Source: Aquificaceae bacterium
Lineage (GTDB): Bacteria; Aquificota; Aquificia; Aquificales; Aquificaceae
Assembly (NCBI GenBank): GCA_027079305.1
Contig: JALWVU010000055.1
Coordinates: 372,001-436,000 of the forward strand
DNA length: 64,000 nt
Direction of reading: 5' to 3'
Shown: one piece after another, positions 2,574 through 56,473 of the stretch
Layout of the letters: every line of letters begins with the position of its first letter
Position numbering within the stretch: position 1 is the first letter of the stretch
Program-made: the position numbers and the translations under genes
Notes under the pieces: generated by a model
What the model was told of the DNA's origin: nothing
Seen by the model: only the letters and a program-made list of their open reading frames with translations
Databases searched by the model: none

Positions 2574-3551
2574 TTACCACTGGGAGGTTATCTTAGCCTT
2601 CTTGTTTACGAACTTGTCTACCGCAAGGGCTGCCTTGCACCCGTCCGCGGCCGCTATCACAGCCTGCTTTACGTTGGTGCATAGAACGTCTCCCGCTGCA
2701 AAAACTCCGGGAACTGAGGTCATCATCTCCTCGTTCACCACTATGCAGTTGCCCTCAGTCATCTCCACCTGACCCATGAGGAAGTCCACCGAGGGCTTGG
2801 TCCCGCCGAGGAATATGAAGACACCGTTAACTTCGAGGAGCTTTTCCTCCTGATTGGCAACGTCCTTGAGCCTGAGTCCCTTTACCAGCTGGTCCCCCAC
2901 TATCTCAAGGACCCTGTGCCTGAGCAGGATCTCGACATTTTCCAGACTCTCGAATTCCTCGAGAACCTCCTGAGGAGCCTTTATCTTGCTCCCGGGAACT
3001 ACGAAGTAGACCTTACTGGCAAAGCGTGCTATGAACTCAGCCTCCTCTATTCCATAATCGTCCTCACCTATAACCGCGACGGGCTGGTCCTTGAAGAAGG
3101 CCGCATCACACACACCGCAGTAGGAGACTCCCCTCCCGAGGAACTCTTCCTCCCCCTTAAACTTGTTGGCCCTCTCCATAGCGCCGGAGGCCACTATGAC
3201 CGCCTTCCCCCTGAACTCCCTTCCGTCTATGGTGAAGACCTTCTTGATCTCCTCCGAGAAGTCGGTAGCTATGACCTTGCCCCTTACGAACTGGGCCCCG
3301 AAACTCTTGGCCTGATCCCTCATTATCTTCAGAAGTTCGTAGCCAGAAAGAGGCCCGGGAACACCGGGGTAGTTCTCTATCTGCTGGGTCACACCGAGGG
3401 CTCCATCCGCCTCAGCCCTGTATAGGACGAGTGTTTTTAGGCCGGCCCTCGCTGTGTAGATGGCGGCGGTGGACCCCGCGGGCCCCGCCCCGATTATTAT
3501 CACATCGTATATCTCCTCCGGCTGGTAGTTGAGACCGAAGTTTGCACCCAT
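2574..3551 (-). CDS. trxB: Thioredoxin reductase-family flavoprotein with altered NADPH site
   Basis: FAD disulfide reductase, 325 residues. The FAD motif GAGPAGSTAA is at 21-30, the redox pair CGVC at C145/C148, and a C-terminal GDV FAD segment is present. Two features expected for NADPH use are missing: the usual GGGDSA-type loop reads GEDDYG (162-167), and the HRRxxxR motif that grips the 2'-phosphate reads VPGSKIKAP (185-193). The GGQ after the first FAD strand is also replaced. This pattern resembles ferredoxin-dependent or 'deeply rooted' flavin thioredoxin reductases, so the electron donor may be ferredoxin or NADH rather than NADPH (inference). It lies 44 bases downstream of the peroxiredoxin gene on the same strand, so the two probably form a peroxide-reducing operon. 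Confidence 0.9.
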   Translation of the reverse strand: MGANFGLNYQPEEIYDVIIIGAGPAGSTAAIYTARAGLKTLVLYRAEADGALGVTQQIENYPGVPGPLSGYELLKIMRDQAKSFGAQFVRGKVIATDFSEEIKKVFTIDGREFRGKAVIVASGAMERANKFKGEEEFLGRGVSYCGVCDAAFFKDQPVAVIGEDDYGIEEAEFIARFASKVYFVVPGSKIKAPQEVLEEFESLENVEILLRHRVLEIVGDQLVKGLRLKDVANQEEKLLEVNGVFIFLGGTKPSVDFLMGQVEMTEGNCIVVNEEMMTSVPGVFAAGDVLCTNVKQAVIAAADGCKAALAVDKFVNKKAKITSQW

Positions 3552-6749: not shown

Positions 6750-7570
6750 ACCTTCACCTCCTCCATGTATATATCGGAAGATCCGCCTACGGTGAGAGTT
6801 CCGCACCCTCCAAGCCTATCCCTCCTGAACCTCGTGGAGAGGGTAACTCTCACACCCATACTCCTCAGAAATAGGAAAGCTCTCTCGTAGGCCTCCGGAG
6901 AGACGGGCTCAAAGTTCCCAACTCTGTTGTAGTAAAGGAGCGTAATTCCCACACCGAGTTCGAGAGCGAGTATGCCGAGTTTCTTTAGATCCTCCTCCGA
7001 ATCGTTCACCCCCCTGAGCAGTAAGTAGGCGAGACTTATCCTTCTCCTTTTCTTCCTTGTCAGACTCGGTAGCTCCGACTTAAGGAAGTCTACCAGATGG
7101 CCCACATTCCCACAGAAGGGCATCAGCTCCTTTCTGAGGTCGTTGTTGAGAGAATGAAGGGAGATACTCACCCCGTTGTGGGGAAGCCTGAGAAGCTCGG
7201 AGAGTTTTTTCAGAGGAAAACCCGTCGTGTAAAAGGATACCTTAAGACCCTTTGATTTAAAGAACTCGAAGGACTTTTTTACCTCTCCCCAGTTCGCGAG
7301 AGGCTCGCCTATGCCAGCCATAGCTATCCTTTTTACGGGAAAGATACCGTTCGCAATACTATACTGGCTGACTATCTCTTCGTAGCTCAGGTTTCTGAAA
7401 AGTCCGTTCTTTCCGGAGGCGCAAAAGGCACATCTGACGTGACAGCCTACCTGAGTCGATACACAGAGGGTATCTCCCCGGTAGTGGACCGCTTCTATAA
7501 GGTGTCCGTCCTCCAGTTCAAAGGTGAGGAGTTTGTTCAGCTCGCTTTCAGTTATGGAGAGTAATCTCAT
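6746..7570 (-). CDS. Short RlmN/Cfr-family radical SAM methyltransferase-like protein
   Basis: Radical SAM protein of the RlmN/Cfr family, which methylate C2 or C8 of adenine in 23S rRNA (A2503) and, for RlmN, A37 of some tRNAs. Visible catalytic residues are the cluster cysteines C43, C47 and C50 (CX3CX2C in GCHVRCAFC), C36 seven residues earlier (matching RlmN Cys118), and C256 in GGCGTL near the C-terminus (matching the methyl-carrying Cys355). At 274 residues it lacks the roughly 80-residue N-terminal accessory domain of standard RlmN (about 350-400 residues). The ATG at 7570 overlaps ricT by 23 bases, and the stop overlaps the yvcK start. Substrate is uncertain because the missing domain helps bind RNA; a standard RlmN may exist elsewhere. 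Confidence 0.85.
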   Translation of the reverse strand: MRLLSITESELNKLLTFELEDGHLIEAVHYRGDTLCVSTQVGCHVRCAFCASGKNGLFRNLSYEEIVSQYSIANGIFPVKRIAMAGIGEPLANWGEVKKSFEFFKSKGLKVSFYTTGFPLKKLSELLRLPHNGVSISLHSLNNDLRKELMPFCGNVGHLVDFLKSELPSLTRKKRRRISLAYLLLRGVNDSEEDLKKLGILALELGVGITLLYYNRVGNFEPVSPEAYERAFLFLRSMGVRVTLSTRFRRDRLGGCGTLTVGGSSDIYMEEVKV

Positions 7571-51716: not shown

Positions 51717-52844
51717 ATGCGGGACGCCTTCATTCTCCTTTTCCTGATAGTCTCTTACAACTTCCTCCTCTGGTATATAACCTGGACTGGTCTTTCTCCC
51801 GTCCCACTTTTCCCGAAAGATCCTTATCATACTGTTCTTGTTCTATCTTACAACTCCGCCTTATATATCAGTTGGCTTTTCGGGGAAAGACATAAGGCGG
51901 TTCAGTGGATAGGTTATCTATTTGTCATTCAAATAATAGCCTTGAGCGTATACTCCGAGGATATAAGAGTAATATTAAAGGACCTTTCCCCCGTAATACT
52001 TACCTTTGCCCTTGTAGTCCTATTTGAATCCCCGACCGAGAAAAGGATTAAGAGCGTCGAGAAGGAAAGGGAGGCATTACTTAGGGAGATAGACAGGGTC
52101 AGAAAGGAGAGGGAGAAGGTAGAGGTTCACCTTAGAATGCTCAAAAGTGAGATAGAGGAGCTGGAGAAGGAGAAGGAAAAGGGCTCCAAGGAGCTGGAGG
52201 AGAGGCTTGCCCAGCTTCAGAGGGAACTTGAAGAGTATAAGGAGAAGGAGAGCAGGCTTCTCGAAACCAACAGGAAGCTCTTCCAGCTCCTTGAGATGAT
52301 GAGGGAGGATACAGAACCCGTGGGTGGGAAAGAGGAGCTCGCAAGTCTCAGAAGGGAGAGGAAGAGACTCGTTAAGGAGATAATAGGACTTCAGGAGCTT
52401 CTGGACGTATACGTGGACGAAAATGAGAAGCTGAAGGAAGATAACGCCAGGCTCAGAAGGAAGGTAGAGGAGCTGAACATAAAGCTCGGGAAGATGGAGA
52501 TTGAAAGAAAAACCTCCGATTCCCAAAAGGAAATTTACAGAGATATCTTAGAGGACCTGTTTCAGCTTAAGTTCTCCGAAAGGGTGGTGGAGGAGCTTCT
52601 CAGACTCCCTTCTCAGAAGAGGAAAGTCTTTCTTAAAGAACTTCTCAGATTCTCCCAGAGGGAGGGGCAGGAGAACGTGGAACCTCTATCTACCGTTCCC
52701 GGTATATACAAGCTCCGCTTCTCGGGCGGAAGGATCTACCTGAGAAAGAAGGACGGCTCCTGGGAGGTGGTGGGAGTTCTGGGATCGGAGGACGACAAGG
52801 AGAAGGATAGGTATATAAGAAACGTTTTGAGTAAAATAGATTAA
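51717..52844 (+). CDS. Membrane-anchored coiled-coil protein with RelE-like C-terminal domain
   Basis: 375 residues from the ATG at 51717. Residues 1-115 hold three or four hydrophobic helices. Residues about 120-300 are a long Glu/Lys/Arg coiled coil with leucine heptads. The last 70 residues (STVPGIYKLRF, then GGRIYLRKKDGSWEVVGVL) have the strand pattern of the RelE/ParE toxin fold. The catalytic residues of RelE cannot be mapped with confidence, so this may be a structural or ribosome-contacting domain rather than a toxin. The gene is divergent from the PfpI gene by 18 bases without a ribosome binding site and 32 bases upstream of the baeRF gene. Not a family I recognise as a whole. Confidence 0.72.
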   Translation: MRDAFILLFLIVSYNFLLWYITWTGLSPVPLFPKDPYHTVLVLSYNSALYISWLFGERHKAVQWIGYLFVIQIIALSVYSEDIRVILKDLSPVILTFALVVLFESPTEKRIKSVEKEREALLREIDRVRKEREKVEVHLRMLKSEIEELEKEKEKGSKELEERLAQLQRELEEYKEKESRLLETNRKLFQLLEMMREDTEPVGGKEELASLRRERKRLVKEIIGLQELLDVYVDENEKLKEDNARLRRKVEELNIKLGKMEIERKTSDSQKEIYRDILEDLFQLKFSERVVEELLRLPSQKRKVFLKELLRFSQREGQENVEPLSTVPGIYKLRFSGGRIYLRKKDGSWEVVGVLGSEDDKEKDRYIRNVLSKID

Positions 52845-52876
52845 AGATTTCCATAACACCCACAGGAGGAAAATAA

Positions 52877-54100
52877 ATGGCAAACCTGAGAGAAACGCTG
52901 GAAAATCTCGCCTCCTTCAGGCCCGAGGGAGCGCTGGTAACATCCCTGTATCTGCACCTCAGACCCGAGGAAAGGCAGGACAGGAAGTATCTGAGGATCT
53001 ACAAGGACATGGTGAAGGAGAAAAAGCTCGAGCTCGGGAGGAGGGAGCTTCCGAAAGATGTTCTGGACTCGATCGAGAAGGATTTTGAGACCATAGGAGA
53101 GTTCCTCTCAGATCCTAAAAACCTGGAAGGGTGCAGGGGCATAGCGGTCTTCTCCTGCTCGAAAGAGAAGTTCTTCCAGGTCGTGAAGCTCCCCTACGTC
53201 TACAGGAGCAGACTGATGGTTGCCCCCGATCCACTCATAAGGGAGATAGCGGCCATAGACGAGGAGTTCGGAAGGGTAGGTGTCCTCCTCGTGGATAGGA
53301 AGCACGTAAGGTTCTTCCTCATGGACATAGAGAGCGTGACCGAGAGCGTGGACTTCCTCGAACCTCTCGCCACGCGGGCCCACAGGTTCCACAGCGGTGG
53401 AAGCGGACTCAAAGGTGCGGAGGGAACCTTCCAGCTGAAGATGCCTTCCCGTGGAGCGGCCCCCAACATGGTCCAGCACTCCTACGGAGAGTGGCGCTTC
53501 CACATGAGGATACAGGAGGAGTGGCACAGGATCCTAAAGCTGGCCGCGGACGCCGCCTTCGAGGACTGGAAGAGGAGCAAGTTCGACAGACTCGTTGTGG
53601 GAGGCTTCGTAGAGGAGGGCCTGAGGGATATAGAGAACCACCTCCACGCCTATTTAAAGGAGAGGCTGGTGGGATACATAGAGATCAACCCTTCCGAGGC
53701 CAGGCCCCACGAGGTTGCGGAGAAGGTTCTGAATCTCCTCTGGGAGAAGGACAGGGAGCAGGAAAAAGAGCTTATATCCGAGCTTCAGGAGCTTATCGGA
53801 AAGGGCCTTGCGGTGAACGGAACCTCTAAGGTCCTCGAGATGCTCTCCATAGGCAACGTGAGGACGATCCTTATACCCGAGGACTTCGAGAAGCCAGGAT
53901 ATCTCTGTCCTGAGACTCACCTCGTATTCCTCAAGCCCGAGTGCCCCATCGAGGGAGAGGAGCCCATCCAGATAGAGGACATAGTGGACGAGGTGATAGA
54001 GGAGGCCCTGGAGCAGAGGGCGAGCGTTGAGGTGATAGTGGACAAGGAGCTTCAGAAGAAGGTGGACGGACTCGCCGCTTTCCTTAGATTTAGCCTATGA
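52877..54100 (+). CDS. baeRF-family (bacterial eRF1-like) protein
   Basis: 407-residue protein resembling archaeo-eukaryotic release factor 1 in its three-part layout: an N-terminal alpha/beta region, a central domain with VGVLLVDRKHVRFFLMD leading into a helical block (AADAAFEDWKRSKFDRLVVGGF), and a C-terminal L7Ae-like domain ending SVEVIVDKELQKKVDGLAAFLRF. The GGQ tripeptide is not present; the equivalent loop reads HSGGSGLKG...QHSYGEW. baeRF proteins are proposed to act in ribosome rescue or translation-linked conflict. AGGAGG precedes the ATG. It overlaps the NYN RNase gene by ATGA, a suggestive pairing. Confidence 0.82.
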   Translation: MANLRETLENLASFRPEGALVTSLYLHLRPEERQDRKYLRIYKDMVKEKKLELGRRELPKDVLDSIEKDFETIGEFLSDPKNLEGCRGIAVFSCSKEKFFQVVKLPYVYRSRLMVAPDPLIREIAAIDEEFGRVGVLLVDRKHVRFFLMDIESVTESVDFLEPLATRAHRFHSGGSGLKGAEGTFQLKMPSRGAAPNMVQHSYGEWRFHMRIQEEWHRILKLAADAAFEDWKRSKFDRLVVGGFVEEGLRDIENHLHAYLKERLVGYIEINPSEARPHEVAEKVLNLLWEKDREQEKELISELQELIGKGLAVNGTSKVLEMLSIGNVRTILIPEDFEKPGYLCPETHLVFLKPECPIEGEEPIQIEDIVDEVIEEALEQRASVEVIVDKELQKKVDGLAAFLRFSL

Positions 54101-54693
54101 ACGAAGAGAGGCTGATGATCTTCATCGACGGCTCCAATCTGTTCCACGGGATAAGGTATCTCAACATAAAGATAGACTACACCAAGCTGGTGGAGTTCCT
54201 GAGAGAGAGCAGGAGGCTGGTGAGGGCCTACTTCTACACCGCGGTCCCTCAGGACAGGGACGTGAAGAAAGGAACACCAGAGTGGGAGAGCCTGGTGAGG
54301 CAGAAGAGGTTCTTGGAAGAGCTCGCCCTCTCGGGCATAAAGGTTAAGCTCGCCAAGCTCAGAAGGCTCCCCTCGGGGGAGTTCGTGGAGAAAGAGGTGG
54401 ACATAATGCTCGCCACCGACATGCTCTCTCTGGCCTTCCAGGACGCCTACGACACCGCAGTCCTCGTGAGCGGGGACAGCGACTTCATATACACGGTGGA
54501 GGAGGTCCAGAGGATAGGAAAGAGGGTCGAGAACGCCACCTTCAAGAAGACGAGCTCCTACAACCTCAGGAAAGTATGTGACAGGTTCATACTACTGGAC
54601 AACTTCATAGACCGCTTCACCTACGAGGATAAACCCGCCCTCTACGAGGAGGTGGGCTTCTGGGCCAAGATAAAGAGCCTCTGGAAGAGATGA
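54097..54693 (+). CDS. NYN-domain (LabA/DUF88) RNase-like protein
   Basis: 198-residue PIN-like nuclease domain protein. Acidic residues expected at the metal site are visible: FIDGSNLFHG (D10), KEVDIMLATDM (D103, D109) and VSGDSDF (D125, D127). These proteins are predicted to cut RNA. It overlaps the baeRF gene by ATGA and the pyrophosphatase gene by 4 bases, so all three are probably co-expressed. Its target RNA is unknown; a stalled ribosome mRNA or tRNA is an inference from the baeRF partner. Confidence 0.88.
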   Translation: MNEERLMIFIDGSNLFHGIRYLNIKIDYTKLVEFLRESRRLVRAYFYTAVPQDRDVKKGTPEWESLVRQKRFLEELALSGIKVKLAKLRRLPSGEFVEKEVDIMLATDMLSLAFQDAYDTAVLVSGDSDFIYTVEEVQRIGKRVENATFKKTSSYNLRKVCDRFILLDNFIDRFTYEDKPALYEEVGFWAKIKSLWKR

Positions 54694-55292
54694 AGATACT
54701 GGTGGCCACAACTAACCGGGGGAAGCTCGAGGAGATAAGGAGGATCCTGAACCCCCTCGGATACGAGGTGATGGAACCTCCCGAAAAGCTGGAGGTAGAG
54801 GAGAGGGGAACGACCTTCTTGGAGAACGCCTATCTGAAGGCCAGAGCTTACTACGAGAGGTTCAAGGTTCCCTCCCTTGCGGACGACTCGGGCCTGGTGG
54901 TGGATGCATTCGGAGGCTATCCCGGGGTGTTCTCGAGCAGGTTCCACTCTATTGAGTTCGGAGGAAGGGAGGACCTCAGAGACTCTGTGGACGAGGCCAA
55001 CGTCAGAAAGCTCCTAAGACTCTTGAAGGGGAAAGAAAACAGGAGGGCCAGCTTCGTAGCCTGCGTGGTCCTTTACTTGGGAGACGGAGGCCTCTTTGCG
55101 GAGGGAGAGTGCAGGGGAAGCGTAGCGGAGTTCCCGAGGGGATCCGGAGGCTTCGGATACGATCCGGTCTTCGTTCCCGAGGGCTACGATAGAACCATGG
55201 CCCAGCTTAGCCCCGAGGAGAAGGACAGGATATCTCACAGGGGCAGGGCCCTCAGGAAGCTGGCGGATCTTTTAAAGAGATGTGATCTGTAG
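54690..55292 (+). CDS. rdgB: Inosine/xanthosine triphosphate pyrophosphatase (RdgB/HAM1)
   Basis: 200-residue nucleotide house-cleaning enzyme that removes ITP, XTP and dITP. Motifs: TTNRGKLEEIRRIL at the N-terminus, TTFLENAYLKARAYY, LADDSGLVVDA, GGFGYDPVFVPEG and SHRGRALRKL. It overlaps NYN by 4 bases and the downstream gamma-like gene by one base (TAGTG). Confidence 0.95.
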   Translation: MKILVATTNRGKLEEIRRILNPLGYEVMEPPEKLEVEERGTTFLENAYLKARAYYERFKVPSLADDSGLVVDAFGGYPGVFSSRFHSIEFGGREDLRDSVDEANVRKLLRLLKGKENRRASFVACVVLYLGDGGLFAEGECRGSVAEFPRGSGGFGYDPVFVPEGYDRTMAQLSPEEKDRISHRGRALRKLADLLKRCDL

Positions 55293-56473
55293 TGGAGATA
55301 GGGAAGAAAATAAGAACCTTCGAGGCCCTCAGGAGCACCCTGAACCTCTGGGAGGTCCTTGCGGTAAACAGATACAAAAAATACAGCTCCCTCGTGGGTG
55401 CCCAGCTCCCGTATTTTCTGAGGCTACAGGAGGTTCTCGAACACCTCTGCGCCCTCTACCCGGGAACCAGGAGCGACCTCCTGCGGGTCAGGGAGGAAAG
55501 GAGCGTGGACCTTCTCATACTCACCTCCGACAGAGGCTATCTGGGAGACTTCATCCCGAGAATCCTCAGGAAGGCGGAGGATTTCATTGAGGCCAGAAGG
55601 GAAATCAAGATAAGTCTCTTCCTGGCGGGAAGGAGGGGAGCTTTGAGGAAATACATGGAAGGGGGAGCTGTCCTCTTCGAGGAGGTCCTCACAAAGGACG
55701 TGAGCTGGGAAGTGGTGGAGAAGATCAGGAACACCTTGGTGGAACGCTACAGGAAAGGGATGAGCGACGCCTGCTACGTTATCTTCCAGAGGCCGAGAGT
55801 GGAGGGAGGCAGGTTCTTAGAGCTGGAGAGGAGGGAGAGAAGGGAAGCGGTTTTGGAAGGGAGCCCTTTCTTCTACACCGGCTTCAGCGAGGTTCTCAAG
55901 CTGGAGCCAAAACGTATGGTGGAGACGGGAGGATACGGGCCCGTGGTGGTGAGGTTCCTGCCTCCTGAAATAAAGGGAAGGTATACCAAAAAATTTGTCC
56001 TTAATTTGGAGGTCCCTGAGGAGGAGCTGATAGAAAGTCTTCTGGAACTCTATCTCAACTTCTTCATGAGGGAAATCTTCTTAGAGCACTTTGCCTCCCT
56101 GAACTTTGCCAGATACAGAACCGTATCCCGAATTCTCGAAAACATAGACAGGAAGCTGAGAACATACAGGCTACTTGTGAACAAGCTCAGGCAGGAGAAG
56201 ATAACGAAGGAGATACAGGATATAGTGTTCTCTCTGATAGCTACCGAGGGAAAAGAGTTCAGATCCTATCAAGAAAATCTTTGGACTCTGGAGGTGGACC
56301 TTCACATAGATGAGGATGTTGTTAAGTATCTGATAGACAGACTCAAAAACCTCGGTTTTACCGTGGGAGGGGTGGAGAGGAGGAACCTCTTAGGCGGTTT
56401 CAAACTGCTGAAACCCGGAAGGGCTATCGATCTCTCCATAGCAGGACTTCTGAACAGCCTGAAGCGGTTATAA
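55292..56473 (+). CDS. ATP synthase gamma-like protein fused to a delta-like C-terminal domain
   Basis: 393 residues against about 290 for ordinary F1 gamma. Residues 1-316 align by eye with gamma: N-terminal helix with IGKKIRTFEALRS, the LTSDRGYLGDF strand (78-87), an alpha/beta middle, and the C-terminal helix with LVNKLRQEKITKEIQDIV (295-312), matching the usual NKARQAxITxEIxEIV. Residues about 330-393 match the C-terminal domain of subunit delta (OSCP), including RRNLLGGFKL and AIDLSIAGLLNSLKRL. Start is GTG, overlapping rdgB by one base. No other ATP synthase genes are in the window. It could be the real gamma/stalk subunit, a specialised paralogue, or a protein with a new role. Confidence 0.75.
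   Translation: MEIGKKIRTFEALRSTLNLWEVLAVNRYKKYSSLVGAQLPYFLRLQEVLEHLCALYPGTRSDLLRVREERSVDLLILTSDRGYLGDFIPRILRKAEDFIEARREIKISLFLAGRRGALRKYMEGGAVLFEEVLTKDVSWEVVEKIRNTLVERYRKGMSDACYVIFQRPRVEGGRFLELERRERREAVLEGSPFFYTGFSEVLKLEPKRMVETGGYGPVVVRFLPPEIKGRYTKKFVLNLEVPEEELIESLLELYLNFFMREIFLEHFASLNFARYRTVSRILENIDRKLRTYRLLVNKLRQEKITKEIQDIVFSLIATEGKEFRSYQENLWTLEVDLHIDEDVVKYLIDRLKNLGFTVGGVERRNLLGGFKLLKPGRAIDLSIAGLLNSLKRL

Follow-up and report, generated by a model that had tools for sequence, protein, structure and literature searches.

What is the role of three closely packed genes that encode, in this order, a membrane-anchored coiled-coil protein with a RelE-like tail, a relative of the release factor eRF1 and a NYN-domain nuclease? 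The arrangement was noticed in the genome of an Aquificaceae bacterium, in a 64 000-nucleotide stretch of contig JALWVU010000055.1 (hereafter, the window), and was interpreted, in a reading of the sequence only, as a ribosome-linked module that might detect stalled ribosomes at the membrane. The identity of the three proteins, the conservation of their linkage across the phylum and the features that would be expected of a functional unit are considered here in turn.

The likely operon and its RelE-like membrane protein

Genes A (51717..52844, 375 aa), B (52877..54100, 407 aa) and C (54097..54693, 198 aa) lie on the plus strand, as do all features described below unless indicated otherwise, at the positions given in the sequence-only reading; the 32 bases between A and B and the overlap of the B stop codon with the C start codon, which were reported there as well, can be read directly. 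An AGGAGG Shine-Dalgarno sequence of gene B is located at 52864..52869, and the ATGA at 54097..54100 that joins B and C is likely to provide for translational coupling, with the same -4 spacing recurring in most of the relatives. The overlapping genes run on from C into rdgB/Ham1 (XTP/dITP pyrophosphatase, 54690..55292), through another ATGA at 54690, and from there into a gene for a 393-aa F1-ATPase gamma-like paralogue (55292..56473), the first base of which is the last base of rdgB (55292), so that the trio is not the whole of the likely operon of this genome. The likely composition of this operon is A-B-C-rdgB-gamma-like, and the last two genes are a probable extension in two of the Aquificaceae genera (g1 and g2; the genera and families are numbered hereafter). 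Upstream of A, a DJ-1/PfpI gene diverges, followed by metal ABC-transporter genes on the minus strand; scans of the sequence for sigma-70 promoters and terminators yielded no more matches than those of shuffled sequences. The gamma-like gene, which is kept after rdgB in g1 and g2, matches the gamma family only as two weaker pieces, and an ordinary atpG is separately present on another contig (G000:C45:15438-16283).

The protein encoded by A consists of three parts. The N-terminal residues 1-102 (51717..52022) include four transmembrane helices (2-24, 36-54, 58-80 and 84-102) predicted from the AlphaFold2 model and hydropathy, with 19-residue means of 2.02, 1.00, 1.73 and 2.19, respectively, compared with at most 0.38 in the remainder of the protein. 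Residues 106-282 (52032..52562) are modeled as three coiled-coil helices (106-153, 158-199 and 207-282) that gave only coiled-coil-type profile matches, and scans of A against Pfam, NCBIfam and PADLOC likewise returned nothing beyond coiled-coil noise. The basic stretch that follows the fourth transmembrane helix suggests that the coil faces the cytoplasm. The full-length model, built on 20 aligned homologues, has a pTM of 0.40, and accordingly, was used for local structure only, with the packing of the coil left uninterpreted.

The C-terminal residues 283-375 (52563..52841) comprise the RelE-like domain that had been proposed by eye, an assignment on which structure prediction, structural comparison and profile searches converge. 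The AlphaFold2 model of the tail (108 residues, 21 sequences) has a pLDDT of 89 and shows the RelE order of structural elements. In a Foldseek search of the PDB, the leading matches are toxins of the RelE/HigB/ParE superfamily, the best being Thermus RelE (2khe, E 1.4e-3, TM 0.61/0.73), and the VIA-align list is filled by chains of the RelE superfamily, with the best Z of 10.2 to RelE1 (9g12_B; rmsd 2.3 over 79 residues). Profile comparison of the tail came out RelE-like, too: when the 21 tails were compared with the PDB using hmmsearch, four E. coli RelE entries led the list, with a weak E of about 0.01 (0.011), and the PHROG profile of RelE-like toxins matched the single A sequence with an E of 3.5e-5. 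This weak to moderate sequence evidence, which is independent of the structure, points to the same fold. The tail is undetected by Pfam and NCBIfam profiles, and ParE_toxin (PF05016) has no match anywhere in the window genome, which implies that this model, too, is blind to the A tail.

In E. coli RelE, R61, R81 and Y87 are important for cleavage, and K52 and K54 have an auxiliary role (PMC2807027). Alignment of the A tails with the RelE of E. coli K-12, on which three MAFFT modes agree, places K332, R/K334, R339, K361 and K363 of A opposite K52, K54, R61, R81 and R83, respectively. Each of these five basic active-site positions is kept in 20 or 21 of the 21 tails: invariant lysine at the K52 position, arginine or lysine at K54, invariant arginine at R61, lysine or arginine in 20 of the 21 at R81, and invariant lysine at R83. 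Lysine in place of R81 is seen in HigB1 as well, as K95 (mapping in PMC12620021). The column of Y87 contains I, A or T, with a Y, F or H residue found one position earlier, in the C-terminal helix, where the correspondence is given by MAFFT only and lies outside the HMMER alignment. A shares with the RelE mRNA interferases of the RelBE toxin-antitoxin systems the fold and the basic active-site positions but differs from them in that the domain is borne by a membrane-anchored coiled coil, Y87 is unmatched, no antitoxin gene is found beside A, either in the window or in the maps of the relatives, and A appears as a stable gene of its lineage rather than part of a mobile pair.

An eRF1-like protein and a NYN nuclease

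The assignment of B to the baeRF/eRF1-like proteins holds above the Pfam cut-offs, with 75.5 bits against 27.7 for baeRF_family12 (PF18856) and 32.8 bits against 25.8 for eRF1_3 (PF03465). The model of the ribosome hibernation factor MSMEG_1130 aligns with nearly the entire protein (residues 20-405 of the 407, E 8.1e-15), and a profile search of the PDB retrieves, with the C-terminal part of B, archaeal and eukaryotic release factors along with Balon (8v9j). In scores against the NCBIfam families of the Balon type, B remains under the curated cut-offs (54.7 against 480 bits for MSMEG_1130 and 61.4 against 330 bits for another family).

The loop of B at the site of the GGQ motif is long, with a conserved HSGG..LKGAEG at the start and GE.RF..R at the end, and none of the 18 homologues of B contains a GGQ ahead of the R-F helix. 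The only glutamine of the loop that is close to the helix, Q200, occurs in 13 of the 18 homologues, with A, R or K in the others. By-eye matching of the R-F pair that follows places it three residues off the GGQ position, and the position that does correspond to GGQ is variable and mostly hydrophobic. Because Q200 is neither conserved nor in register, B is unlikely to release the peptide by the usual chemistry. These features of the loop bear on the possibility that B, as a factor of the baeRF family 10 type, rescues ribosomes through active peptide release, with A and C cleaning up the mRNA. Indeed, B also matches baeRF_family10, with 55 bits, and PMC6514570 suggests that family 10 keeps a catalytic glutamine, but the loop alignment, in which B is without a conserved catalytic glutamine, led us to reject this candidate, which we consider very improbable.

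Balon proteins, too, are without GGQ and bind the A site (PMC10901736), and such baeRF proteins have been proposed by Burroughs and Aravind to act like Dom34 or together with the hibernation factor HPF (PMC6514570). With the Balon/baeRF proteins (the MSMEG_1130, Rv2629 and AOC03_06830 families), B shares the organization of the aeRF1 superfamily and the eRF1_3 domain, and it likewise lacks GGQ, but it scores far under the curated cut-off, is not found beside HPF/RaiA, and has A and the NYN gene as its partners; term searches of PMC6514570 and PMC10901736 turned up no mention of such partners for baeRF or Balon. HPF is encoded in nearly all Aquificota genomes, but at sites away from B. In the two closest relatives of B from Acidobacteria, the baeRF gene directly follows a gene for a fusion of HPF/S30AE with sigma-70 region 4 (L117, 6795-7928; L118, 1081-2262).

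The third protein was correctly recognized as a member of the NYN domain family. NYN (PF01936) is the only Pfam profile that matches C at E up to 1, with 111 bits, and the nearest solved structure is VPA0982 (2qip). The aspartates D11, D102, D127 and D129 are invariant. These four residues and the NYN domain are shared by C with the NYN/LabA-type RNases and with Rae1/YacP, a ribosome-dependent RNase of Bacillus subtilis; the Pfam family of YacP/Rae1, in contrast, does not match C at E up to 1. PADLOC relates C to generic NYN entries (HEC-09, NYN), with no convincing defense family for A or B. In one draft genome (L074, G034, 2662-3246), an in-frame TAA interrupts C, through either sequencing error or decay.

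Taken together, the properties of A and B give rise to a serious rival explanation, that of membrane-linked ribosome hibernation without RNA cutting, whereby A would serve as a catalytically inactive tether that engages the A site to keep idle ribosomes at the membrane, B would be a Balon-type factor, and C a housekeeping RNase that happens to be co-translated with B. The greater closeness of B to hibernation factors than to active release factors, the unmatched Y87, and the missing antitoxin, normally necessary for keeping a RelE nuclease in check, are all compatible with this explanation, but the five basic positions kept in A are more than a simple tether seems to require, and, on balance, we regard it as somewhat unlikely.

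Linkage and loss in Aquificota

The comparison of gene neighborhoods shows that the trio is conserved in the genera g1, g2, g3, g6 and g9, and in part of g8, as expected under the sequence-only reading. Among the 136 Aquificota genomes, B was found in 52 and A, with strong matches, in about 60; 45 genomes have B adjacent to C and 33 have A adjacent to B, with typical gaps of 24 to 38 bases between A and B and -4 to +2 between B and C. No more than six genes away from C, B is encountered in nine genera and A in seven. Between genera, A-B-C is preserved while the gene ahead of A and those behind C vary, with rdgB downstream of B-C in g1, g2, g10 and g11, and ribF in g3, g5, g6, g8 and g9. Given this recurrence in many genera of Aquificaceae, the linkage of the trio is not due to chance.

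The phyletic distribution of A among the 136 genomes is limited to Aquificaceae (f1) and the related family f3, and that of B is the same save for a single B gene in Sulfurihydrogenibium; in the other Aquificota families, the A profile retrieved only coiled-coil matches and, in 297 Acidobacteriota genomes, nothing at E 1e-6, in a search that had no positive control there. C is encoded nearly throughout the phylum, also in genomes without B: both main families and f3 have close orthologues, and most genomes contain an additional, more divergent paralogue. In f3, all three genes are present, on different contigs; f2 possesses C without A and B, in the contexts of TGT, a deacetylase and a Mur ligase; and the genus g4, lacking both A and B, kept C. 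Within Aquificaceae, the linkage of A to B-C is missing from g10, g11 and most of g8. Among 88 genomes with a completeness of at least 90% and no more than 5% contamination, 39 encode both A and B, 44 neither, and only five are discordant, three with A only (G043, G062 and G107) and two with B only (G061 and G106); this tally ignores shared ancestry, which explains much of the co-occurrence.

Two records stand apart. The Sulfurihydrogenibium gene, from S. yellowstonense SS-5 (L093/L067, 540-1760), is 71% identical to the B of a g8 genome (G051) and is found on a 3.8-kb contig with no A or C beside it, which could reflect either lateral gene transfer or a contaminated draft assembly. A record titled Acidobacteria bacterium J001 (L105) contains the Aquificaceae order A-B-C-ribF, with a B protein 59% identical to that of the window, and is probably mis-binned.

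In six genomes (G012, G014, G019, G034, G043 and G047), A and C are directly adjacent without B, and in another genome (G054; L121, about 6868-7125), a large in-frame deletion of the middle has left a remnant of B that consists of the N-terminal part fused to the final 36 residues. The absence of B is scattered over the tree of C, with at least four changes forced by well-supported branches and seven within Aquificaceae under parsimony; these counts are to be read with the long branch of G034 and the weak placement of some genomes in mind. B, then, looks like a dispensable part, and the A-C linkage persists without it. The conception of a three-gene module is therefore upheld with respect to the domain assignments and the conserved linkage but not as an obligate unit, B being lost and A unlinked in places.

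These findings also bear on the other serious rival, an ordinary mixed operon, in which A, B, C, rdgB or ribF and further genes would be co-expressed while performing unrelated jobs, in an inherited gene order. The attachment of the unrelated rdgB or ribF to B-C within groups of genera fits this explanation, as do the separation of A from B-C in several genera and the different contexts of C in f2. Less easily accommodated are the persistence of A-B-C while the flanking genes change between genera, the adjacency of A and C after the loss of B in six genomes, and the RNA- or ribosome-related folds of all three proteins. We consider this explanation unlikely.

A putative translation-stress module

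The reading that we favor, tentatively and with a probability of roughly 40%, is that the three proteins act together on stalled or idle ribosomes, A as an RNase tethered to the membrane, B as a factor that occupies the A site and C as another RNase, and so would constitute a lineage-specific translation-stress module of Aquificaceae. Under this scenario, A would be polytopic in the membrane, with its cytoplasmic coiled coil bearing a RelE-type domain able to enter the ribosomal A site, where it would probably cut the mRNA or else bind it. Having lost the conserved glutamine of peptide release, B may, like Balon or Dom34/Pelota, fill the A site when a ribosome is stalled or idle, and hold or clear that ribosome but leave the peptide unreleased, and C, translated in overlap with B, might degrade RNA that thereby becomes accessible. 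Because the RelE domain of A and B would compete for one site, the two would have to act sequentially or on different states of the ribosome. The RelE fold and basic positions of A, the likeness of B to hibernation factors, the aspartates of C, the linkage that withstands changing flanks and the largely concordant presence of A and B in the 88 genomes all argue for joint action of the three proteins; the dispensability of B, the unlinking of A from B-C in several genera, the near-universality of C without B, the unmatched Y87, the inability of A and B to share the A site and the location of HPF, the usual baeRF neighbor, elsewhere in the genome argue against it.

A more specific version, which we deem improbable, is a membrane counterpart of no-go decay, in which the tethered RelE domain would cut mRNA in ribosomes stalled near the membrane, Dom34-like B would take the emptied A site, and the co-translated NYN RNase would destroy the fragments. 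The possible common logic with no-go decay rescue, which involves SmrB in E. coli, MutS2 in B. subtilis and Dom34 in eukaryotes, is the combination of a nuclease with a non-releasing aeRF1 relative on stalled ribosomes (for SmrB and MutS2, PMC10897456). The likeness is in logic only, given that no SMR domain was found in A, B or C.

For the incorporation of a RelE-like domain into a larger protein that binds the ribosome, Cami1, a CRISPR-linked CARF-RelE RNase activated by cA4, offers a precedent; its cA4-bound ribosome complex (8phj) is among the VIA-align matches of the A tail, with a Z of 8.6. A differs from Cami1 in having membrane helices and a coiled coil, and no cA4-binding domain.

The families to which the parts of A, B and C belong are all already known. 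Searches of the available profile libraries, of the 297 Acidobacteriota genomes and of Aquificota outside f1 and f3 did not retrieve the architecture that combines four helices, a coiled coil and a RelE-like domain, and the open-access literature searched yielded nothing relevant on a membrane-anchored RelE or a NYN-baeRF pair and no described system with the trio, in agreement with the initial impression of novelty. Naturally occurring strains that differ in the presence of B lend themselves to direct comparison. If the favored reading is true, baeRF/Balon proteins would gain partners other than HPF, the RelE domain would be seen as a membrane-anchored housekeeping tool rather than a toxin-antitoxin component, and the trio would suggest a route of ribosome rescue or hibernation in a thermophilic lineage.
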